Below are positions 4,026 through 37,858 of a stretch of 37,858 nt of DNA, piece after piece. The stretch comes from Burkholderiaceae bacterium (GTDB lineage Bacteria > Pseudomonadota > Gammaproteobacteria > Burkholderiales > Burkholderiaceae_C). Location: the NCBI GenBank assembly GCA_004299095.1, contig SCQQ01000052.1, positions 1-37,858 on the forward strand. Reading direction: 5' to 3'. Below the pieces are notes generated by a model. The model was not told the DNA's origin. It searched no databases and saw only the letters and a program-made list of their open reading frames with translations. How positions within the stretch are numbered: position 1 is the stretch's first letter; each line of letters starts with the position of its first letter. Position numbers and translations under genes: made by a program.

Positions 4026-5317
4026 GCCGCCACCTCCCGCGTTTCGGTGGACTCTGGCGTGACGCCGAGGGTGCCAGCCGTTGCGGCGCCCTCAATGCCT
4101 GCATCAACAGCCGCATCTCCGGCATCACCGCCCGACGCCGACGGACTGGACGACAGCACGTTCAAGGCGCTGGTGCGCGTCACCACGCCCAGCAGTTGAC
4201 CGCTGCTGGGGTCGACGACCGGCTCGGCAAACGGCCAGTTGGTCAGCCCGCCGAGGATGTCGCCCAGTGTTGCATCCGGGCGTATCGATGGCGTTTTTTT
4301 GTAGACCTCGCTGATATTCGGCAGGCGTTTTTTCACCGCCTGCTCGACCGCGTCCAGACCGATGGTGCCGCAATACGAGAAATCGCGCTTCACCACCGCA
4401 ATGCTGGTGAAATCGGCCTCGTTCATCTTGTGCAGCACGGTGCGCGGGCCGTCGCGGTCGAGTGCTACGACGCGCGCCGGCACCATGGCCGCTTTCGCCG
4501 TCAAAACGCGCGACAAATCCACGTGCTCGACAAAGCGTTCGACATACGCGTTGGCGGGGTTGTTCAAAATCGCCTCAGGCGTGTCGAATTGCACCACGCG
4601 CCCGTCTTTCATCAAAACGATGCGATTGCCCAGTTCCAGCGCTTCATCCAGGTCGTGGGTAATGAAGATAATGGTTTTCTTCATTTTCTGTTGCAGTTGC
4701 ATGAGTTCGCGCTGCATGTCGCGGCGAATCAGCGGATCGAGCGCGCTGAATGCCTCGTCCATCAACAAGATGTCCGATTCCACCGTCAATGCACGCGCCA
4801 AGCCGACGCGCTGTTGCATGCCACCACTCAATTGGCCGGGATATGCGTCTTCCCAGCCGGACAGCCCCACCAGTTGCAGCGCCCGGCGGGCGCGCTCGCG
4901 CCGCTCGGCGCGTTTCACGCCCTGGACTTCGAGGCCATACGCCGCGTTGTCGGTCACGGTGCGGAATGGAAACAGCGCGAAATGCTGAAACACCATCGAG
5001 ACTTTCTTGCGCCGGTAGTCCAGCAACTGCTCGCGATCGAAACACGTGATGTCTTCGCCATCGACATACAGATGGCCGCTGGTAATGCTGTTCAAACCAT
5101 TGAAACAGCGAATCAACGTCGATTTGCCGCTGCCGGACAAACCCATGACGACGAGGAATTCGCCCTCTTCGACTTCAAACGACACGTCGATGCAGCCGAC
5201 GGCAAAACCGGCATCGCGCATTTCCTGATTGGTTTTGCCGGCATCCAGCAAACGCAAGCCTTGGCGCGGGCGCTCTCCATACAACTTGGTCAATTTCTCG
5301 ACTTTAATTTTCGGCAT
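4022..5317 (-). CDS. proV: Glycine betaine-type ABC transporter, ATP-binding protein with CBS domains
   Basis: ATPase subunit of the importer, 431 residues. Walker A is GLSGSGKST at 59-67; the signature LSGGMQQRVGLARAL and Walker B ILLMDEAFSALD follow in the expected order. The part after about residue 290 is a pair of CBS modules (for example FTSIAVVKRDFSYCGTIG and GGLTNWPFAEPVVDPSSGQL), which in OpuA-type transporters sense ionic strength or nucleotides; this suggests osmotic control of transport. The start MPKIKVEKLTKLYGE has a GAGG site (GCGAGGCG) 6-10 bases upstream and matches the family. The same frame stays open another 215 codons upstream to 5962, but that stretch has no family similarity and is rejected as coding. 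Confidence 0.94.
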   Translation of the reverse strand: MPKIKVEKLTKLYGERPRQGLRLLDAGKTNQEMRDAGFAVGCIDVSFEVEEGEFLVVMGLSGSGKSTLIRCFNGLNSITSGHLYVDGEDITCFDREQLLDYRRKKVSMVFQHFALFPFRTVTDNAAYGLEVQGVKRAERRERARRALQLVGLSGWEDAYPGQLSGGMQQRVGLARALTVESDILLMDEAFSALDPLIRRDMQRELMQLQQKMKKTIIFITHDLDEALELGNRIVLMKDGRVVQFDTPEAILNNPANAYVERFVEHVDLSRVLTAKAAMVPARVVALDRDGPRTVLHKMNEADFTSIAVVKRDFSYCGTIGLDAVEQAVKKRLPNISEVYKKTPSIRPDATLGDILGGLTNWPFAEPVVDPSSGQLLGVVTRTSALNVLSSSPSASGGDAGDAAVDAGIEGAATAGTLGVTPESTETREVAA

Positions 5318-6157
5318 GGAACGCCTCGCGATGAAAAAGAAAGAATATGAGCGGTATTTGAAGCAATGAGGTTCGCAAATCGTTGATGAAAAATGGGGCT
5401 TGGCGAAGCCTTGATGCACCGTGTCAAACGGATTGGCACTGATTGCAAGCGCCAGCTGCGCGGCCAACTGCAACTCGAACGGAAGAAATGCGCCAGACCG
5501 GCGCGCGGGTGGAAAGTCCCGAACGTGGTTCAAGAACCCTGTCACATGGAAGCAATCCGGCCATACGCTCTCCGCAGTCGATGAAAGCTGGCGCGAATCG
5601 CGAAACCTTCGAAGAGGAGCCGGGACGCGCGCACAGCGCGGTCTTTGCGGGACGCCCTGCACGACCTCTCGCGCGCCGCACATCGCAGGATTTCGGGGGA
5701 CTGACGCGTTGCTTTCGTTGGCAATAGCCCCGCTATTGCGTGCGAAAAAGCGCCTTGCAGCCCATTCGAATCCAGCGCGTGCGTCAACGCTCAGGCGATT
5801 CAGAGCATCCTTGAGTGACCTGGAATCGCATGCGAAGGTCGCCAAACAATTCCGGGCGGGCGATGTGGGGGCGGGCCCCAGCAAGTCCTTGGTGCCTCCA
5901 ACCGCCGCGCGGGCGACGGCACTCATGGAGGCAGTCGTTCCGGCGCTTGCGAGCCGAAACATGCCGTCGCGCGATCAAAGATTTCAACCGCGGACCTGGT
6001 TGATTATATTGGCTTCAGCATGATGCGCAAGAGGTGCAGCGATCTTCCAATATAAGAAAGAGCGTGCCTATCCGCGCGTGGCGACCGGGCGCCCAGGTTC
6101 GCGGTTCGCAGCACAATGAGCGCGGGTAGCATCGCTCGGATATCAACGGAGACAAGC
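5318..6157. other. Long divergent intergenic region between proV and the amidohydrolase gene
   Basis: 840 bases with no gene I can support. Overlapping frames are open on both strands but none resembles a protein. It must hold the promoters of the proVWX operon (minus) and the amidohydrolase operon (plus). Visible structures are a 7-bp hairpin GCAATAG/CTATTGC at 5721-5739 and an inverted repeat TTATATTGG/CCAATATAA at 6004-6055. A long 5' leader of proV or a small RNA is possible but cannot be shown. Confidence 0.6.
6004..6055. promoter_or_regulatory. Inverted repeat, candidate operator or promoter region
   Basis: TTATATTGG at 6004-6012 is the exact reverse complement of CCAATATAA at 6047-6055, 34 bases apart. 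The sequence is AT-rich in a GC-rich setting and lies about 100 bases upstream of the amidohydrolase ATG. It could be a two-site operator or a pair of facing promoter elements. Confidence 0.4.
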
Positions 6158-27242: not shown

Positions 27243-28490
27243 CTATGGGTTCGCGCTTGACGCGGTGGCGACGCTCGCGGGTTGCGGCAGCCAGCGGAAC
27301 GCCAGCGCGCCCATGAACAGCGCCAGCGCGATGGCGCCGAACACCGGGCCGTAAGGATCGATCTGATGCGCTTGCGCGGACGACGCGATCAGTCCCGTGA
27401 TCCACTGCAATAAAGCGACGCCCATGAATAGCGCCATGGTGAAAAGTGCGAACGCGCGCCCGAGCACGGCCGGTTCGTAGGCGTCCTTCACGTCGGGGTA
27501 TTGCAGCGTGCCATAGCCGGACAGCGCGGCAAACAGGACCATGACCGCGATGTCGACATAGAGCCCGACATCGAACGCCATGACCGCGAACAGCGCGCCC
27601 GCCGCCATGGTGCACCAGAACAGCACGCCGCGGCGCGGCCGCGGACCCGGATCCGCACGGCCGAAGAGCGGCAGGCTGACCAGCGAAATGAGCGTGACCA
27701 CGATGATCAGGTTGCCCGTGGCCACTAGGTCCCAGCCGTAGCGATCGGCCATGAGCGGCCCCATCCACAGGCCGCGCAACGCAATGAAAGCGCCATACGT
27801 CACCAGCGCCAGCGCAATGATGCCCCAGGTGTGCGGCAGCTTGAACAGGTGGCCGAACGTGCGCAGCGCATGCGCGAGGGTTTCGCGCTGCGCGGTGTCA
27901 GGGCGCGTGGGCTCGCGCACGCCCAGCGCCATCACGGTCCAGGCGAGCGCCGCGAGCGCCGCCAGCAGCCAGAATCCGGCGTGCCACGACGCGGTGTCGA
28001 TCAGCCACGCGAGCGGCGTGCCGGTGAGCAGCATGCCCAGGCTGCCGAGCGCCAGGATGATGCTGGAAATAGTGGCGTACTGGCGCGCCGGAAAATGGCG
28101 CGCGATGTACACCGCGCACACCAGGAACGCCGGCGCGCAGCCGATGCCGATCAACACCTGGCCGAGCACCAGCAGGGGAAAAGTGTGCGCCAGCGCCGAC
28201 ACCACCGCGCCCAGCACCATCAGCGGCGACGCCAGCAGGATGGTGCGGCGCACGCCGTACAGGTCGATGCCGAGCCCCATGAACAGTTGCAGGCCGCCAA
28301 AAGCGAAGTGGTAGGCGGCGGCAAACAGGCCGAGCTGCCCCGGCGACAAATGCATTTCCGCCTGCAGCGGCGGCGCCATGATGGCCGCCACCGTGCGAAA
28401 CGCCTGGCTCATGAAAAAACCGGTGGTAAGCAGCAGCAGCGACGCCCAGGCGGCTGTCATGCGGAGCTTGGGCAATCGAAGCGGCGTCAT
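27243..28490 (-). CDS. MFS transporter
   Basis: 415-residue inner-membrane protein with twelve predicted helices. The N-terminal SLLLLTTGFFMSQAFRTVAA and PGQLGLFAAAYHFAFGGLQL, the A-motif-like GLGIDLYGVRRTILLASPLM between helices 2 and 3, and GIGCAPAFLVCAVYIARHFP place it among the set of MFS proteins often labelled as NarK/nitrate-type or sugar-phosphate-like; the substrate cannot be told. ATG 28490 is used; a TTG three bases upstream is in frame but unnecessary. Divergent from the phosphatase gene and convergent with the lipoprotein gene. Confidence 0.88.
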   Translation of the reverse strand: MTPLRLPKLRMTAAWASLLLLTTGFFMSQAFRTVAAIMAPPLQAEMHLSPGQLGLFAAAYHFAFGGLQLFMGLGIDLYGVRRTILLASPLMVLGAVVSALAHTFPLLVLGQVLIGIGCAPAFLVCAVYIARHFPARQYATISSIILALGSLGMLLTGTPLAWLIDTASWHAGFWLLAALAALAWTVMALGVREPTRPDTAQRETLAHALRTFGHLFKLPHTWGIIALALVTYGAFIALRGLWMGPLMADRYGWDLVATGNLIIVVTLISLVSLPLFGRADPGPRPRRGVLFWCTMAAGALFAVMAFDVGLYVDIAVMVLFAALSGYGTLQYPDVKDAYEPAVLGRAFALFTMALFMGVALLQWITGLIASSAQAHQIDPYGPVFGAIALALFMGALAFRWLPQPASVATASSANP

Positions 28491-30040: not shown

Positions 30041-31921
30041 ATGTGCGGCATCGTCGGCGCGGTTTCCACGCGCAACATCGTTCCCATCCTCGTCCAGGGG
30101 CTGCAACGGCTCGAATACCGGGGCTACGACTCCTGCGGGCTGGCAGTTCAAGCCGCCGGCAACGGCTTGCGGCGCATCCGCGGGATTGCGCGCGTGGCCG
30201 ATCTGGCGCAGCAGTGCGAGCAGGAGGGGTTGCAAGGCACCACCGGCATCGCGCACACGCGCTGGGCCACGCATGGCGCGCCGGCGGTGGCCAACGCCCA
30301 CCCGCACTTCAGCTTCGGCCCCAACGCCGGCGCCGAGCGCCGCGCGCGCGTCACGCTGGTGCACAACGGCATCATCGAGAACCACGAGGCACTGCACGCC
30401 GAACTGGCGGCCAAGGGCTACCGCTTCGACAGCCAGACCGACACCGAAGTCATCGTCCATCTGATCGACAGCCTGTATCAAGGCGATCTGTTCCGGGCGG
30501 TGCAGGCCGCCACTGCGCGCCTGCGCGGCAGCTATTCGATTGCCGTGCTGCATCGCGACGAGCCCGGTCGCCTGGTGGCGGCACGGCAAGGCTCCCCGCT
30601 GGTATTGGGGCTGGGATACGACGGCAAGGAGCGCTTCGTCGCCAGCGACGCCATGGCGCTGGCGGGCGTGACCGACCAGTTCATTTACCTGGAAGAAGGC
30701 GACGTGGCCGATGTCCAGTTGGGCAAGCATTGGATCGCCGACCGGTCGGGCCGCACGGTCGAGCGCGCGACGCGCACGGTGCATGCCACTGCGGCTGCGG
30801 CCGAGCTGGGGCCGTACCGCCATTACATGCAGAAGGAAATCTTCGAGCAGCCACGGGCGGTGGCCGACACGCTGGATGGTGTCGAGGCGCTGACGCCGGC
30901 GCTGTTCGAACCCGCGGGCACGAACGCGCCGGCCGGCGCAAAGGCCGAAGCGGTCTTCAAACGCATCCGCCAGGTCCTGATCCTCGCCTGCGGCACCAGC
31001 TACTACGCCGGCTGCGTCGCCAAGTACTGGCTGGAAGGCATCGCGCACATCCCGTGCCAGGTCGAGATTGCAAGCGAATACCGCTATCGCGATTCGGTGC
31101 CCGATCCCGACACGCTGGTGGTCACCATCTCGCAATCGGGCGAAACCGCCGACACGCTGGCGGCGCTGCGCCACGCACAACAGCTCGGCATGCGGCACAC
31201 GCTCACGGTGTGCAACGTCGCCACCAGCGTCATGGTGCGCGAATGCGAATTCGCGTTCCTGACGCGCGCCGGCATCGAAATCGGCGTGGCCAGCACCAAG
31301 GCGTTCACCACGCAACTGGTCGGCCTGTTCATGCTCACGCTGACGCTCGCGCGCCTGCGCGGCCACCTGAGCGCCGAGCAGGAAGCAGCCCACCTGAAAG
31401 CGCTGCGCCACGTTCCCACGGCGCTGCAATCGGTGCTGGCGCTGGAGCCGCAACTGATCAACTGGGCGGAACAGTTCGCCGCCAAGGAGGACGCGCTGTT
31501 CCTGGGACGCGGCCTGCACTATCCCATCGCGCAGGAAGGCGCGCTCAAGCTGAAGGAAATCAGCTACATCCACGCCGAAGCCTATGCCGCGGGCGAGCTC
31601 AAGCACGGACCGCTGGCCTTGGTCACCAGCGAGATGCCGGTGGTGACGGTCGCGCCCAAGGACGCGCTGCTGGAAAAGCTCAAAAGCAACATGCAGGAAG
31701 TGCGCGCGCGCGGCGGCGTGCTGTACGCCTTGGCCGACGCCGACACCCAGATCGAAAGCGGCGACGGCCTGCACGTGATTCGCATGCCCGAGCACTACGG
31801 GCTGCTGTCGCCCATCCTGCACGTGGTGCCGCTGCAATTGCTGGCCTATCACACCGCCATCGCGCGCGGCACCGACGTCGACAAGCCGCGCAACCTGGCC
31901 AAGAGCGTGACGGTGGAGTGA
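30041..31921 (+). CDS. glmS: Glutamine--fructose-6-phosphate aminotransferase (isomerizing)
   Basis: Makes glucosamine-6-phosphate from fructose-6-phosphate and glutamine, the first step toward UDP-GlcNAc for peptidoglycan and LPS. 626 residues (E. coli 609). Cys2 after Met1 is the glutaminase nucleophile (MCGIVGAVS); the N-terminal domain has [26 protein letters not shown]-like TRWATHGAP and [11 protein letters not shown]. Two SIS domains follow: [20 protein letters not shown] with [16 protein letters not shown], and [20 protein letters not shown] with [16 protein letters not shown]. The C-terminus [13 protein letters not shown] is canonical. It has a strong Shine-Dalgarno site. The upstream neighbour is the Lrp-type regulator, divergent. 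Confidence 0.98.
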
Positions 31922-31948
31922 CTTGATCTGCGGCCGGGCGGCTCGGTA

Positions 31949-31964
31949 ACCGCGGCGCCGCGGT
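31949..31964. terminator. 16-bp GC palindrome between convergent genes
   Basis: ACCGCGGCGCCGCGGT is perfectly self-complementary and lies 28 bases past the glmS stop, between glmS and the converging antiporter remnant. A bidirectional terminator is plausible; there is no U-tract. Confidence 0.4.
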
Positions 31965-31974
31965 GCGCCGCTGC

Positions 31975-32724
31975 TCAGATGGCGGACAACGGTTCGGTGC
32001 CGCAGACCGTTGCTGGTTGATCCGCGTCGGGATGCGAATCGGCCGTGCCTTCCGGCGGAACCAGCGCCATTACGGCCCAGCCGGTGTGCGGCTCGGTCTT
32101 GCACTGGGCGCCGGCGACGTGCAGACAGCCGGCGAGATCGATCAAGAACAGCAGCAGTGACGCGGTGCCGTGCTGCGCCAGGAATTGCAGCCAGCCGAAC
32201 CTCTTGGTCAGTTCGGTCGCTTTGATGGACCAGCCGGCTTGCAGGCGCGACTGGAGGCGCGCGTGCGACACGTCGTTGCCGAAGAGCGCGCGGGCCCGCA
32301 ACGACTTGACGAACTTGCGCTGGTCGGTCGCTTTCGCGCGCGCCAACACATGCCTGTGGAACACCTGGTCCTGGCCGAACTTGCGCCGGTAATGCAGACA
32401 GGCGAGCGGGTTGAATTCGCGCTCGGTGGACATGGCGAGCAGTTGGCCGAGGCCACTCAAGTCCAGATTCAGCTCGGCGAAGTGTGAAGTCGCATTGCCG
32501 TAGAACGTATTGAGATCTGCCATGCGCGCCTCGCTCACGCCCTCCCAGTCGTCATCGGCCAACACCACGCGCACCTTCTGGTCGGCCAGCGCCTTGCCGA
32601 CGGCGCGCGCCACGTCGTCGGAGCCCAGGATCAGTACGTCGTCGGGTTCCGGCTCGACCACCTTGAGCCACTTGGCCAGCGGCCACGCCGTGACGTTTTT
32701 CAGCACCACCGTGCCGATGATCAG
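31975..32724 (-). pseudogene. C-terminal remnant of a CPA1-type Na+/H+ antiporter with TrkA-N-like domain
   Basis: About 249 codons of the 3' part of a cation/proton antiporter gene. It begins inside the last membrane helix (LIIGTVVLKNVTAWPLAKWL) and continues into a cytosolic Rossmann-like RCK domain: DDVLILGSDDVARAVGKALA, VRVVLADDDWEGVSEARMAD, NTFYGNATSHFAELNLDLSG, and the LLAMSTEREFNPLACLHYR region; the C-terminal tail HTGWAVMALVPPEGTADSHP is typical. The ~350 residues of transmembrane antiporter core are missing. The open frame continues upstream to 32790 through unrelated codons (QSTRQKLGVDLNRLE) and has no ATG, so it is not expressible as a normal protein. The break at about 32722-32730 coincides with the start of the low-GC module; I infer that the module's arrival removed the 5' end. 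Confidence 0.85.
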
Positions 32725-32822
32725 TTCAAGCCTATTCAGATCGACACCAAGTTTCTGACGGGTGCTTTGAGTGTGCGCCGTAAGAAGCAAGGGTTTTCAC
32801 CTATAGACAACCCAATCCTCAA

Positions 32823-32858
32823 GGAGATCATTGGTCTGAGGTCAGACCTCTGATCTCC
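32823..32858. promoter_or_regulatory. 36-base near-perfect dyad, probable operator of the GntR regulator
   Basis: GGAGATCA (32823-32830) pairs with TGATCTCC (32851-32858) and GGTCTGA (32833-32839) with TCAGACC (32842-32848); only the TT/TC positions between break the symmetry. The core contains the GGTC...GACC half-sites expected for FadR-type GntR regulators. It lies 29 bases before the gntR ATG, so autoregulation is likely. A tandem ATTACAAC pair (32865-32880) follows it. Confidence 0.65.
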
Positions 32859-32887
32859 TGCGGCATTACAACATTACAACTAAGCCA

Positions 32888-33667
32888 ATGGCTCGCAACT
32901 CAACGCCTCTTGATTCGATAGACGCTTCTCCGAAAAGCTCTGACCCCGGCGCACTTCTCTCACCACCGCTTGCCGCGCAGTCAGGAAGAGGTGTCGTACT
33001 GCCGATCAGGGGTAACCGGCTCACTGTGCCTCAGCAAATCGTGGCTGAAATTCAGAGACTCATTGCCAGTCGGGCGCTCAAAGCCGGCGACAAACTACCG
33101 CCTGAGCGCCAGCTTGCGGTGCAGCTCAACGTCAGCCGCTCCGCACTGCGGGAAGCGCTTAGAGTACTGACCGAGCTCGCAATTCTGGACGTCAAACACG
33201 GGAAGGGTACCTATGTGTTAGAGCCACAGTTGAGGCCCCTGACCGATCTCTCGATCGTGGAGGACAGCGCCAAGCTGGCTTTCATGAAGCAAGCCATCGA
33301 AGCGCGAGCAGCCATCGAAATCGAAGTGGTTCGCCTCGCAGCTTTGCGCGCGGATGCCGAGAATATCAACGGCTTGGAAGCGTATTACGCCGAAAGTATT
33401 TCGGAGCCTTTGCAATCGAAACGGCGCTACGACTACGCATTAGCGTTCGAGAAGTTGATAGGGGAAGCAAGCAAGAACCCTTATTTAGTCAGTCTCCAAA
33501 ACCAGGCCCACAAATTCTTTTCCGAGGCTTGGCGCACCGGCGGATTCATTCCCAGGTCCGCTGACCAAAGAAACGTGCAGCACGCCCGCATTCTGCAGGC
33601 AATTGCCAGTCATAACGCGGATTTAGCTGTCGAATTGATGAAAATTCACATGCATATTAGTTTCTAA
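32888..33667 (+). CDS. FadR-subfamily GntR transcriptional regulator
   Basis: 259 residues. A poorly conserved N-terminal ~45 residues is followed by a winged helix-turn-helix (about 48-110: VPQQIVAEIQRLIASRALKA, DKLPPERQLAVQLNVSRSAL, VKHGKGTYV) and an FCD ligand-binding domain (about 125-255: MKQAIEARAAIEIEVVRLAA, AFEKLIGEASKNPYLVSL, QHARILQAIASHNADLAVEL). Where FCD proteins usually have Asp-x3-His, this one has Asp followed by Ala-Phe-Glu (DYALAFEKL), so one metal ligand may be replaced by Glu. The final HMHISF ends early. It presumably controls the downstream dehydratase/transporter genes by binding a sugar-acid-like effector. The 3' end is markedly AT-rich. Confidence 0.92.
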   Translation: MARNSTPLDSIDASPKSSDPGALLSPPLAAQSGRGVVLPIRGNRLTVPQQIVAEIQRLIASRALKAGDKLPPERQLAVQLNVSRSALREALRVLTELAILDVKHGKGTYVLEPQLRPLTDLSIVEDSAKLAFMKQAIEARAAIEIEVVRLAALRADAENINGLEAYYAESISEPLQSKRRYDYALAFEKLIGEASKNPYLVSLQNQAHKFFSEAWRTGGFIPRSADQRNVQHARILQAIASHNADLAVELMKIHMHISF

Positions 33668-33709
33668 CCATTATCAGTTCACTCATTAACTTGTTCACAC
33701 GAGATCATC

Positions 33710-34822
33710 ATGAAAATCATCAACATAGAAAATATACCGATTCAAATGCCGCTCAAAAAAACTTACCGCGGCAGTCATTACTATATGACACATCGATGCA
33801 CAATTATCACCAGAATTTACACTGACGAGGGGATCATAGGTGAATGTTATAACGGAGATGAATTCGAAACACAGTCCGAAATTATCAATATTATTCAGAA
33901 AGAAATTAAACCCCAAGTATTAGGCATGGATATATTCTCCAGCGAACGCATTTGGCAGGCTATGCTGCCGCCCACGTACAACATCTTGCGTGACCGCAAG
34001 TTGGCCACCAACGCCATGGCTTGTGTTGATAGCGCCGTCCTTGACGCTTGGGGCAAAGCGTTGAATCAGCCGCTGTTCAAGCTTTGGGGTGGTTACCGCG
34101 ACGAGCTGCCTATCATTGCTATTGCGGGGTATTACGAAGAGGGCAAGAAGCTCGCTGATTTCGGCACCGAGATGGAGAAGTTGCGCGAGGCTGGCTTGGG
34201 TGGTTGCAAATTCAAGGTCGGCGGGCGCTCTCCTGAAGAAGATGCGGAGCGTGTACAGGTCGCACGCAAGGCTGTTGGCAACGATTTTATCCTCACGGTA
34301 GATGCTAATCAAGGTTTCACCCAGCGTGAGGCAATCCGATTTGGCCGACTGGTGCAAGACTGCAACGTTCGCTGGTTTGAGGAGCCCTGCCGTTGGTACA
34401 ACGACCGCTCCTCGATGGCACTGGTGCGCAACGTGACCGGCATTCCCGTTGCCGCAGGCCAGAGTGAATATCACCGAGGCGGTTGCCGCGATTTGTTCGA
34501 AAGCGGCTCCGTCGACGTGTGCAACTTTGATGCCAGTTGGGGTGGCGGGCCGACGGAGTGGCGCCGCGTAGCGGCCATGGCGCTGTCCTACGAAGTGCAG
34601 ATGGGGCATCACGAAGAGCCGCAAGTGTCCGCTCAATTGTTGGCATCGATCCCACACGGAACGATGGTCGAGGTATTTCATCCTGATCGCGATCCGCTGT
34701 TCTATGCATTGTTTGCCAATCACAGCAAATTTGACCACGGTAAATATAAGGTTCCGACCGGACCGGGCTGGGGCCTTGAGCTGGATCAGGACGTGATCAA
34801 AAAATATCGCGTCGATAAATGA
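33710..34822 (+). CDS. Enolase-superfamily enzyme, mandelate racemase subgroup (first copy)
   Basis: 370 residues. The N-terminal capping domain runs to about 125. Barrel motifs: Lys167-x-Lys169 (CKFKVGG), Asp198 in TVDANQG, Glu224 in RWFEEP, Asp274 in CNFDASWGGGPTEW, and His300/301 in MGHHEEPQ. This is the mandelate-racemase set of Lys-x-Lys plus His-Asp, used in acid-sugar dehydratases and racemases. The usual third metal-ligand Glu (as in AGGES of the second copy) is Gln251 here (AAGQSE), with Glu253 two residues on. Substrate unknown; sequence suggests a subgroup distinct from the second copy. The first ~83 codons are AT-rich (about 37% GC by hand count over 33661-33960), then GC rises near 57%, so a composite origin is possible. 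RBS weak (CGAG). Confidence 0.88.
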   Translation: MKIINIENIPIQMPLKKTYRGSHYYMTHRCTIITRIYTDEGIIGECYNGDEFETQSEIINIIQKEIKPQVLGMDIFSSERIWQAMLPPTYNILRDRKLATNAMACVDSAVLDAWGKALNQPLFKLWGGYRDELPIIAIAGYYEEGKKLADFGTEMEKLREAGLGGCKFKVGGRSPEEDAERVQVARKAVGNDFILTVDANQGFTQREAIRFGRLVQDCNVRWFEEPCRWYNDRSSMALVRNVTGIPVAAGQSEYHRGGCRDLFESGSVDVCNFDASWGGGPTEWRRVAAMALSYEVQMGHHEEPQVSAQLLASIPHGTMVEVFHPDRDPLFYALFANHSKFDHGKYKVPTGPGWGLELDQDVIKKYRVDK

Positions 34823-34946
34823 ACGCTGGGCAGCGAAAGCTCATCTCCAAAGCAATCTTCGGCAAAGGCTCGCTCTTAACCCCATGAGATTGCGATAGCT
34901 CATCGGATATTCAGAGCCAAGCCGATATCTCAAGGGGAGGTTCGAA

Positions 34947-36095
34947 ATGAAAATAACCGACGTCATCACCTATCCAGTCTCTTATGAACTCGACACCGAG
35001 TTCTGGATGTCGCGGGAGCCATACCGAACCGCGTCCGCCATCATCGTTCAAGTTCGAACGGATGACGGCGTGGTCGGCACCGGCATCATCAACGGTCGCC
35101 CGATGACGGAAATCGTCAACATCGTAACGATGCTCCGTGATGTCATCATGGGCATGGATGCCTTGGCACATGAGGCAGTCTGGCAAAAGATTTTTGCAAT
35201 CACCTATACCCGCGCCGGCGCAGCACTAGACCGAGACGCGGGGCAGCCTCATTTCGGCGCCGGCAAGCGCCCTCAAATTTTGGCGGCCCTAGCAGGCATT
35301 GATCTTGCCCTCTGGGACATCAAGGGGAAGGCACTGAAACTACCTATCTGGCGCTTACTCGGCGCTACGTCCGGCACGACTTACGCCTATGCAAGCGGTG
35401 GGTACTACGAAGCAGGTGAGCCAATTTTGAAAGTCGCGCAGGAAATGGCGTCCTATGTGGATATGGGCTACACGGCGGTAAAGATGAAATGCGCCGGTGT
35501 CAGCTTGGCCGATGACGTGAAGCGCGTCTCCGAAGTGCGAGCCGCCATTGGCCCTGAAACCAAACTCATGTTGGATGCAAATTTGGGGTATTCACTCGAC
35601 GAAGCGACCGACGCACTTCGAGCTTACGAAAAATTCAACATCTTCTGGTTCGAGGAGCCGCTTTACTGGTATGACAGCATACGAGCTCTTGGAGAGCTGG
35701 CCCGTCGCACCCACGTTGCCATTGCCGGTGGCGAGAGCCAGTTGACCGCGTGGGAGGCTCGTGATTTAGTAGATTTGGGCGGCGTCAATTTCATGCAGTT
35801 CGATGCCACTCGTGCTGGCGGTATCACCGAATTGCTGCGCGTGGCTCACTATTGTCATTTGCGCCACGTTCGCATCACGCCGCATCACGATCCAGAAATA
35901 CATGCCCACGTCGTCGCAGCAATGGTCAATGGCTTTGGCGTAGAGACTTTCCCGTACAAGGCGCGTGATCCGCTGTGGGATCGTTTGTATTCAAAAAAAC
36001 CAATTATCAAGGACAGCTACTTGCATTTGGATAGCGAGCCGGGTTTTGGTTTCGAGTTAGATTGGCAAGAGGTCGAAAATCATAAATTAATTTGA
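34947..36095 (+). CDS. Enolase-superfamily enzyme, mandelate racemase subgroup (second copy)
   Basis: 382 residues with the full metal and catalytic set: Lys179-x-Lys181 (AVKMKCAG), Asp210 in MLDANLGYS, Glu236 in WFEEPLYW, Glu263 in AIAGGESQ, Asp286 in QFDATRAGGITE and His313/314 in TPHHDPEI. This pattern fits an acid-sugar dehydratase (aldarate or aldonate type). The N-terminal capping domain has KITDVITYPVSYELDTEFWM. It differs widely from the first copy, so it probably performs a different step or handles a different stereoisomer. Strong Shine-Dalgarno (GGGGAGG) before ATG 34947. It is followed 46 bases later by the transporter gene. Confidence 0.9.
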   Translation: MKITDVITYPVSYELDTEFWMSREPYRTASAIIVQVRTDDGVVGTGIINGRPMTEIVNIVTMLRDVIMGMDALAHEAVWQKIFAITYTRAGAALDRDAGQPHFGAGKRPQILAALAGIDLALWDIKGKALKLPIWRLLGATSGTTYAYASGGYYEAGEPILKVAQEMASYVDMGYTAVKMKCAGVSLADDVKRVSEVRAAIGPETKLMLDANLGYSLDEATDALRAYEKFNIFWFEEPLYWYDSIRALGELARRTHVAIAGGESQLTAWEARDLVDLGGVNFMQFDATRAGGITELLRVAHYCHLRHVRITPHHDPEIHAHVVAAMVNGFGVETFPYKARDPLWDRLYSKKPIIKDSYLHLDSEPGFGFELDWQEVENHKLI

Positions 36096-36141
36096 AGATA
36101 TTAAGAATGTCGTTCAATAGAATACAAGGAGCAACCTCACC

Positions 36142-37416
36142 ATGGACAAAGATTTGCGCTGGACTGCCGCAGGCAGCATTGTTGGTAGCGTCTTAGAGTG
36201 GTATGACTATGTTTTATATGGAACGGCATCAGCCCTTGTGTTCGATAAGCTCTTCTTTGGGAATGTAAGTACCAGCGTCGGGACGTTGCTTGCGTTTGCG
36301 ACGTTCGCCATAGGCTTTCTGGTGAGGCCAATAGGAGGCACACTGTTCGGTGCGCTAGGAGATCGCATCGGGCGTCGGAACGTCCTTTTTATTACCTTGA
36401 TCCTCATGGGACTAGCGACGACCGCCATCGGCTTGTTACCTACCTTCGCCAGTATTGGTGTGTGGGCTCCGATCCTGCTTGTCCTCGTGCGGATTGTGCA
36501 AGGTATCGGTTCCGGCTCTGAATACGCTGGTGCGGTCATTGTCATGAGTGAAAGCTCCCCCATTAAGCACCGAGGCCTTTACTCAACTTTCCCCTATATC
36601 GGCGTCTCTGCTGGTTTGTTGCTGTCCTCAGTTGTCTTTGCGGTATTTCAGCGGATGCCCTCTGATGAATTCATGAGTTGGGGCTGGAGGATTCCCTTTC
36701 TGTTAAGTATGGTTTTGGTCATCGTGGGTATTTTGGTTCGCCTGCGTATGCCAGAGAGCCCAATCTACAAGGATCTCGTCGAAAGCGGTCGAACTGTACG
36801 CAAGCCCTTCCTCGACGTTTTCAAGACCTCGGGTAAACACATTGTCCTAGCTTGGGCCGTAGGTATCACGGATAACTCATTCGCTTATTTCTTCCAGACT
36901 TATATGGTGGCTTATATCGCGCACGACTTGCATATGCCAACTTCGCTGACACTGATCACCTTGACCGCCTTGGGCATCGTGCAGCTTTTCACTGTACCCG
37001 GCTGGGGTGCCATATCCGACAAGATTGGCAGAAGGCCAGTTTTGATGATCGGAAGCCTTTGCTCGATTTTGTTCGCATTTCCCCTGTTCTGGCTCTTGAA
37101 CACGCGGATTGAGATCGTGATCGTCCTCTCCATCGTCTTAGCCTCCAGCGTATTTCGCGGCGCCATCGTTGCGGCTCAAGCGTCGTGGTATTGCGAACTA
37201 TTCAGTTCGAATGTCCGTTACTCGGGTTTCGCGATAGGCCGGGAGTGGTCATCAATCTTCGGCGGGTTGATGCCGGTGATTGCCAGTGCAATCCTATTGA
37301 TGAGTGGTGGCAAGACTTGGATTCTGTCCGTGATCATTATTGTCTTTGCGCTCCTGACGTTTCTGGCCGCCTTCTTCGGTCCGGAGAATTTCAAGAAATC
37401 TTTGAGCAATATTTGA
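36142..37416 (+). CDS. MFS transporter, metabolite:H+ symporter (MHS) family
   Basis: 424-residue twelve-helix transporter. The start GSIVGSVLEWYDYVLYGTAS is the MHS signature, with the A-motif GALGDRIGRRNVLFITLIL and the second-half equivalent ISDKIGRRPVLMIGSLCSIL. RVVQGIGSGSEYAGAV-like VRIVQGIGSGSEYAGAVIVM and ESSPIKHRGLYSTFPYIGVS are also typical. It probably imports the acid sugar or hydroxy acid used by the two enzymes upstream. Good RBS (AAGGAG). It is the last gene of the module. Confidence 0.92.
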   Translation: MDKDLRWTAAGSIVGSVLEWYDYVLYGTASALVFDKLFFGNVSTSVGTLLAFATFAIGFLVRPIGGTLFGALGDRIGRRNVLFITLILMGLATTAIGLLPTFASIGVWAPILLVLVRIVQGIGSGSEYAGAVIVMSESSPIKHRGLYSTFPYIGVSAGLLLSSVVFAVFQRMPSDEFMSWGWRIPFLLSMVLVIVGILVRLRMPESPIYKDLVESGRTVRKPFLDVFKTSGKHIVLAWAVGITDNSFAYFFQTYMVAYIAHDLHMPTSLTLITLTALGIVQLFTVPGWGAISDKIGRRPVLMIGSLCSILFAFPLFWLLNTRIEIVIVLSIVLASSVFRGAIVAAQASWYCELFSSNVRYSGFAIGREWSSIFGGLMPVIASAILLMSGGKTWILSVIIIVFALLTFLAAFFGPENFKKSLSNI

Positions 37417-37742
37417 CTTGTGCAGATGCGTGAAGTAGGCATTTCTGACGCAGAATTGCCTGCGTTAGCCGGGATCAACGCTTAGTCGGTCATCATGCGG
37501 CTGAGTGTAGGCAGTCGGATAGGGCGCAAACGTGCGGCCCCAAGGTGTGCGATCGGCGGAGCGCCAGGCGCCGCGGCGCACCCGCTGGAAGCCCGCTCAC
37601 TGGCGCGGATGCGGCCTGCTCAGCCCCGTGTCACACTGGAAAGCAGCGGGTATCGGGGCGCGAACGGACTACACTCAAAACCAATCTGCCCAGCGCTGCA
37701 ACGCGCGGGGCGGACGCCATCCCCAACTCATCCCCTCTCGCC
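37417..37742. other. Intergenic region between the module and pckG
   Basis: 326 bases with no supported gene. It includes the hairpin at 37445-37468 and the right edge of the low-GC module, where GC content returns to the chromosomal level (about 37500). The -10-like TACACT at 37670-37675 is a weak candidate pckG promoter element. No part of the missing antiporter N-terminus is recognisable here. Confidence 0.6.
37445..37468 (+). terminator. Hairpin after the transporter gene
   Basis: CTGACGCAG (37445-37453) pairs with CTGCGTTAG (37460-37468) with one G:U pair, around AATTGC. It lies 29 bases past the stop codon. No U-tract follows, so termination is inferred. Confidence 0.4.
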
Positions 37743-37858
37743 ATGAATGCCACTCTTGCCGCTGGAACTGGCGTTGCCCTGAACGTCCCCGCCACCGTCA
37801 AACACAAGCGCCTTGTGGCCTGGGTAGGCGCCATGGCGGCGCTGTGCAAGCCCGAGCG
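37743..37858 (+). CDS. pckG: Phosphoenolpyruvate carboxykinase (GTP), 5' end only
   Basis: The first 38 codons run to the window edge. MNATLAAGTGVALNVPATVK and KRLVAWVGAMAALCKPE fit the N-terminus of GTP-dependent PEP carboxykinase from Burkholderiales (a short leader, then a helix ending VxxMAALxKPE). The enzyme converts oxaloacetate to PEP in gluconeogenesis. The active site lies beyond the window, so the call rests on the N-terminal pattern. Confidence 0.75.
   Translation, partial: MNATLAAGTGVALNVPATVKHKRLVAWVGAMAALCKPE

Follow-up and report, generated by a model that had tools for sequence, protein, structure and literature searches.

We describe a four-gene module in a 37,858-nucleotide stretch of DNA from a Burkholderiaceae bacterium (GenBank assembly GCA_004299095.1, contig SCQQ01000052.1). 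This stretch, referred to as the window, comprises the whole of contig G000:C41 of the genome. The module occupies positions 32888-37416 of the plus strand and encodes a GntR/FCD regulator, two mandelate-racemase-type enzymes (termed ENZ1 and ENZ2) and an MHS-type symporter, in that order (Table 1). We consider it probable that the module is a catabolic operon of a familiar type, acquired horizontally and controlled by a FadR-type regulator, that it serves the use of a hydroxy- or sugar acid and that it is located at a gene-order breakpoint. This reading is carried by the gene content, a codon use foreign to the surroundings, a truncated antiporter gene at the left edge, catalytic residues conserved in both enzymes and flanks that are unlinked in relatives.

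An earlier note, made from the sequence letters, had proposed a self-contained unit of four plus-strand genes (a FadR-type regulator, two mandelate-racemase-like enzymes and an MHS transporter) containing neither an aldolase nor a dehydrogenase. Pfam matches above cut-offs, the gene coordinates and the gene list agree with it on each point. The four reading frames are intact and are separated by 45, 127 and 49 nt (preceding stop codon counted), gaps short enough to make co-transcription of all four genes likely.

The same note had described the base composition of the module as lower and more variable than that of the surrounding chromosome, and had suggested a comparison of GC content and codon use. 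In 1-kb windows, GC content falls from 0.66 (31501-32500) to 0.50-0.57 in the module, where 200-bp windows range from 0.36 to 0.61; the composition is thus not uniform. GC content at third codon positions is 0.60-0.62 in the four module genes versus 0.83-0.88 in six neighbouring genes: the MFS gene at 27246, a phosphoglycerate-mutase-like gene, an Lrp-like gene, glmS, the antiporter fragment and pckG of contig C68 (putative identities judged by eye, except for the antiporter fragment and pckG). Similarity to neighbouring codon use is 0.30-0.39 for module genes and 0.62-0.74 for the neighbours, five of which themselves make up the reference. The sixth, the antiporter fragment, lies outside the reference and has host-like values (GC 0.655), which places the shift in composition at its broken end. 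The description therefore stands, and the module has the foreign codon use characteristic of horizontally acquired regions. A second, milder GC dip (0.556-0.579) is seen in the window at 4501-6000.

The regulator combines a GntR helix-turn-helix domain with an FCD ligand domain, the arrangement that defines FadR-type GntR regulators. Just upstream of its gene lies a near-perfect palindrome with 18-nt arms, 89% complementary and 2 nt apart. No other palindrome of this type (18-nt arms, up to two mismatches, gap 0-8) occurs in the window, and none was found in three shuffled sequences. We regard it as a candidate operator of the regulator. A promoter-like site at 32804-32831 in the leader does not exceed chance expectation (4 such sites in the region versus 3.6 expected). 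The transporter scores best with TIGR00883 among NCBIfam models (384.1 bits) and, although this is formally below the cut-off of 443.45, is predicted to work like an MHS metabolite/H+ symporter.

Table 1 Features of the module and its borders
Feature	Coordinates	Strand	Basis or remark
C-terminal antiporter remnant, ~250 aa, TrkA-N domain	31975..32724	-	Pfam TrkA_N and homologue alignment
Leader/promoter region of module	32725..32887	+	GC falls here (fine GC scan)
Near-perfect palindrome AGGAGATCATTGGTCTGA-GG-TCAGACCTCTGATCTCCT, candidate operator	32822..32859	.	Inverted-repeat search
FadR-type regulator, GntR helix-turn-helix and FCD ligand domain, 259 aa	32888..33667	+	Pfam over cut-offs
ENZ1, mandelate-racemase-type enzyme, 370 aa	33710..34822	+	MR_MLE N and C, Pfam over cut-offs
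ENZ2, mandelate-racemase-type enzyme, 382 aa	34947..36095	+	MR_MLE N and C, Pfam over cut-offs
MHS-type metabolite/H+ symporter, 424 aa	36142..37416	+	MFS by Pfam over cut-off
Right junction zone	37417..37742	.	GC of 40-base steps rises from ~0.55 to 0.70 at ~37520
pckG (GTP-dependent phosphoenolpyruvate carboxykinase), first 38 codons	37743..37858	+	Remainder on contig C68
Congener regions with channel-family gene upstream of pckG			L134, L138, L141, L143, L144, L145, L180

Catalytic sites and relatives of the two enzymes

Both enzymes have the two domains (MR_MLE N and C) and the aligned residues (K-x-K, D, E, a D-H pair and a C-terminal Glu) that characterize the mandelate racemase subgroup. 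We take the K-x-K motif, the D/E metal ligands, the D-H pair and the C-terminal Glu to have catalytic roles in this subgroup. The residues are K167-x-K169, D198, E224, Q251-x-E253, D274, H301 and E321 in ENZ1, and K179-x-K181, D210, E236, E263-x-Q265, D286, H313 and E333 in ENZ2. As the residues for proton abstraction are kept in both, a reaction adjacent to a carboxylate is well supported.

The two enzymes differ at one place. Gln251 of ENZ1 occupies what is presumably the position of the third metal ligand. In a 47-row alignment, Gln stands here in 10/10 ENZ1-type rows, including PDB 3msy, and Glu in all 37 other rows (two of them one protein), ENZ2 having Glu263; ENZ1 has a Glu, Glu253, two residues past the Gln. 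In the same loop, ENZ2 reads E-x-Q; of the 12 further rows in its clade (two of them one protein), 11 read E-x-E. The enzymes share 30% identity and fall into separate supported clades of a tree that included one SAR202 protein (L058), which argues against a recent duplication.

ENZ1 is 54% identical to PDB 3msy over the aligned length, and chains 3no1 and 4h83 are related. These entries, named 'mandelate racemase/muconate lactonizing enzyme', resemble ENZ1 in having K-x-K, D, E, G-Q-x-E, D, H and E, and no tested function is given in their names. In one open-access library, from which absence is not proven, term searches found no paper naming 3msy or dealing with such an operon and, for 4h83, only an unrelated paper; 3no1 was not searched. 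At E<=0.001, 16 NCBIfam models were listed for ENZ1 and 18 for ENZ2, none above cut-off. The best-scoring curated models for both are those of archaeal arabinonate dehydratase (NF040866) and L-talarate/galactarate dehydratase (NF047820); scoring 145.7-173.3 bits where the cut-offs are 650 and 500, neither enzyme is a member. The nearest PDB chains of ENZ2 with a named reaction are a galactonate dehydratase (5olc, E 3.5e-47) and a 3,6-anhydro-alpha-L-galactonate cycloisomerase (5xd7, E 8.2e-42), and unnamed betaproteobacterial proteins are closer. The enzymes thus belong to a known superfamily, within subfamilies for which we found no function. Many mandelate-racemase-type proteins have a sequence or structure but no known substrate.

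ENZ1 was found in none of the 368 other genomes of a class sample (E<=1e-80) and none of the 397 of a phylum sample (E<=1e-60), both even draws in which only first-look candidates were scored (up to five in the rows shown); by these sequence searches it is rare. Relatives are carried on plasmids of Rhizobium (50%, in two pieces) and of Haladaptatus and Halomarina (43-45%). The closest relatives of ENZ2 (51-53% identity) are found at four loci of uncultured Betaproteobacteria, and no match above 44% was found in 99 relatives, 28 of them congeners. Near all four loci lie tricarboxylate-receptor and Gfo/Idh genes, recognized by eye; Pfam confirmed Gfo/Idh, tricarboxylate-receptor, cyclase and DHDPS-family genes at one of them (L033) and a cyclase gene at a second (L034). 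This appears to be an acid-catabolism setting, which we count in favour of the proposed operon. Five plasmid regions with ENZ1 or ENZ2 relatives were also considered as a clue to the substrate and set aside, as no partner set is common to all; the neighbours there are ABC transporters, fumarase-like lyases, and a cyclase or RraA protein.

Borders of the module

On the left, the module abuts a minus-strand open reading frame (31975-32790) in which TrkA-N is the only domain found and which is convergent with glmS, farther to the left. Homologues were found at 11 loci of the same order, 10 of which gave full-length proteins of 602-675 aa. Alignments to these begin at residue 21-23 of the fragment (near 32724) and residue 369-436 of the homologue; 368-435 residues are therefore absent from the remnant, amounting to loss of nearly the whole membrane domain. 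Three full-length homologues have Na_H_Exchanger and TrkA_N domains; for the two of them compared with NCBIfam, the top-scoring entries are the PRK05326 models of potassium/proton antiporters, under cut-off. An initial KefB/KefC-like identity was dropped on this basis, and the remnant probably derives from a monovalent cation/H+ antiporter that is PRK05326-like rather than of the Kef type.

The earlier note had put the left border at ~32723 and had the module inserted against a broken antiporter gene. The position was accurate, as antiporter homology ends at codon 32722-32724 or at most two codons further, and the gene at the left edge is indeed truncated. Insertion into that gene is another matter, its first part being absent from the right flank. 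A simple island insertion into the antiporter gene, the other part having later been lost or removed, would account for the sharpness of the truncation at 32724, exactly where the foreign composition starts. We nevertheless think this unlikely: on the right stands pckG, which in four congeners is unlinked to glmS; the N-terminal 365 residues of eight full-length homologues have no match at the five PF00999 loci of the genome (tblastn, E<=1e-3); and the borders share no long repeat.

The right border is not sharp, with the GC jump at ~37520 and the pckG start at 37743. The last 120 bases of the window (37739-37858) are identical to C68:1-120 of the same genome, and the protein encoded on C68 is above the cut-off of NCBIfam NF003253 (pckG). 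Assemblers leave such end overlaps at graph branches. The overlap suggests an unresolved branch at pckG, perhaps due to strain variation, and it is what links the module to pckG. Four congeners (G003, G011, G014 and G024) have glmS and pckG on a single long contig, with over 400 kb between the two. A mechanosensitive-channel-family gene (Pfam) is located upstream of pckG in each of the seven congener regions retrieved, the query's own among them; pckG and the channel gene were also confirmed in G011. In the genome of the window, this gene had no match at E<=1e-10 in a search run without a positive control.

With pckG, and not the other half of the antiporter, on its right, the module probably sits at a gene-order breakpoint and is not a plain insertion. 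At this breakpoint, the antiporter gene on the left would have lost its first part, and pckG on the right the channel gene found upstream of it in congeners. The junctions could instead be an assembly artefact, the contig joining different strains or organisms, given that the draft assembly has 122 contigs, of which the window is one in full, that its exact overlap with C68 points to a branch and that the two flanks are unlinked in relatives. This seems to us quite improbable, as the genome is scored as 99.54% complete with 0.19% contamination and the overlap ties the contig of the module to one carrying a host-like pckG.

Comparison with relatives, which the earlier note had proposed to align to find the exact borders, revealed neither the same gene order beside a complete antiporter gene nor an empty site. 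The antiporter itself is sparse: five matches in a 100-genome set (E<=1e-10) and 15 in an order-wide draw of 399 genomes (E<=1e-35, best 52%), the genome itself included in both, and a single distant match (28%, in G007) among 28 congeners. It is thus unusual in the genus, leaving no empty site to align. The genes after glmS vary between congener stretches, judged by eye, and these stretches lack the antiporter. A Tn7-type element using the end of glmS was also considered and dropped, since antiporter sequence and no transposon end follows glmS. An Rfam search of 31000-37858 gave no match. An imperfect 16-nt inverted pair (81%) joins the two border zones (32766-32781 and 37664-37679); being one among 13 inverted pairs listed for the region, it is probably due to chance.

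Predicted pathway and its alternatives

In the mechanism we propose, the regulator would bind the palindrome and be released once an acid occupies its FCD domain. The MHS protein would import a small carboxylate together with protons, and both enzymes would remove the proton alpha to the carboxylate group. For ENZ2, whose mandelate-racemase-type site is complete, the most likely reaction would be dehydration of a hydroxy- or sugar acid, yielding a 2-keto-3-deoxy acid; ENZ1, in which Gln stands in the position of the third metal ligand, might epimerise the substrate or handle a second stereoisomer. The resulting keto acid would then be finished by enzymes encoded elsewhere in the chromosome. 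The genome has a third mandelate-racemase-type protein, a ManD-type D-mannonate dehydratase above its model cut-off (L003:895-2133, G000:C97), and this separate dehydratase suggests that disposal of a keto-deoxy acid may already exist.

In favour of the proposed operon, ENZ1-type proteins (48-52% identity, E<=2.4e-112) occur in 7 of the 13 genomes that carry the best ENZ2 loci, the best-scoring matches in the remaining six having 30-34% identity. The seven carriers fall among eight genomes labelled Betaproteobacteria in their record titles; those without include four alphaproteobacterial genomes (Ancylobacter and Rhodospirillales among them) and one 'uncultured bacterium'. Several observations weigh against the proposed operon. 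As all co-occurrence genomes carry the one label, shared ancestry may explain the link. In these genomes, the ENZ1-type and ENZ2-type genes do not lie side by side (flanks of at most 8 kb considered), and the ENZ1-type genes of the seven uncultured genomes have no transporter or regulator partner by eye. Instead, metG adjoins them in three of the seven and lies within ~3.5 kb in five (by eye, metG having been tested in one). None of 80 loci examined out of 111 matches the whole gene set, which leaves the operon without backing from conservation. Their flanks, which extend to at most 8 kb and are shorter on small contigs, contain no ENZ1 match above 40%; weak matches are MHS-like at one locus (39%) and GntR-like at five (28-32%). 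The congener searches covered ENZ2 and the antiporter. The hallmarks of an integrative mobile element (integrase or transposase, tRNA site, flanking repeats) were not found: Pfam gave no integrase or transposase in the five genes at 31975-37416, mobile-element genes being sought by eye in C68:1-8000 beyond the contig end, a tRNA search found none, and the longest exact word common to both borders has 9 bases. Because every listed curated model is under its cut-off, dehydration, epimerisation and cycloisomerisation are indistinguishable and dehydration is unproven. Finally, DHDPS, the sole aldolase family sought, is represented by two genes in the genome, neither of which is evidently for the pathway.

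The residues kept in both enzymes (K-x-K, D, E, D, H, E), together with their low identity and separate clades, would also suit parallel dehydratases or racemases for different stereoisomers, which would allow the use of chirally mixed acids. For SAR202 bacteria, enolase-superfamily expansions are proposed in PMC6946804 to act on chirally complex acids and so to open chirally complex matter; that proposal is a hypothesis from genomes, and the present data do not tell a racemase from a dehydratase. We regard this arrangement as possible, if somewhat unlikely. The SAR202 enzymes are, like the present ones, of the mandelate racemase type and tied to chiral acids by proposal; they form large paralogue sets, in contrast to the regulator-transporter operon described here.

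The substrate might instead be an alicyclic or aromatic acid, of the shikimate or quinate kind, transformed by cycloisomerase or racemase chemistry. In line with this, the second-best NCBIfam model for the transporter is the shikimate transporter (315.4 bits, cut-off 538), and cyclase-family genes lie near two ENZ2 relatives, as noted above. MHS proteins carry varied substrates, however, the listed transporter models are all under cut-off, and the best models for ENZ1 and ENZ2, also under cut-off, are sugar acid dehydratases; we hold this substrate class to be distinctly unlikely. Very doubtful, too, is a two-enzyme relay for one unreported acid, in which ENZ1 would invert a stereocentre with its Gln site and ENZ2 would eliminate water, a recurring pair joined here in one regulated operon. 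The loop residues of the two proteins, Q-x-E for ENZ1 and E-x-Q for ENZ2, complement each other and would fit such a division of labour.

The module joins a subfamily with a crystal structure (3msy) to a further enzyme, a transporter and a regulator that senses a ligand, which gives several independent approaches to a single substrate; the Gln variant of ENZ1 tests to what extent the third carboxylate ligand is required. Acquired catabolic operons are common, and the interest outside enzymology is therefore modest.

Three further observations concern other loci. The vicinity of metG at five loci of uncultured Betaproteobacteria (L170-L174) is odd for a catabolic enzyme. By eye, an ABC-permease-like gene precedes the ManD-type gene, which faces a gene resembling that of a kinase. 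The second DHDPS-family gene (L169 / L177, G000:C44) lies near a FAD-dependent-oxidoreductase-like gene, also by eye, and perhaps serves hydroxyproline breakdown.

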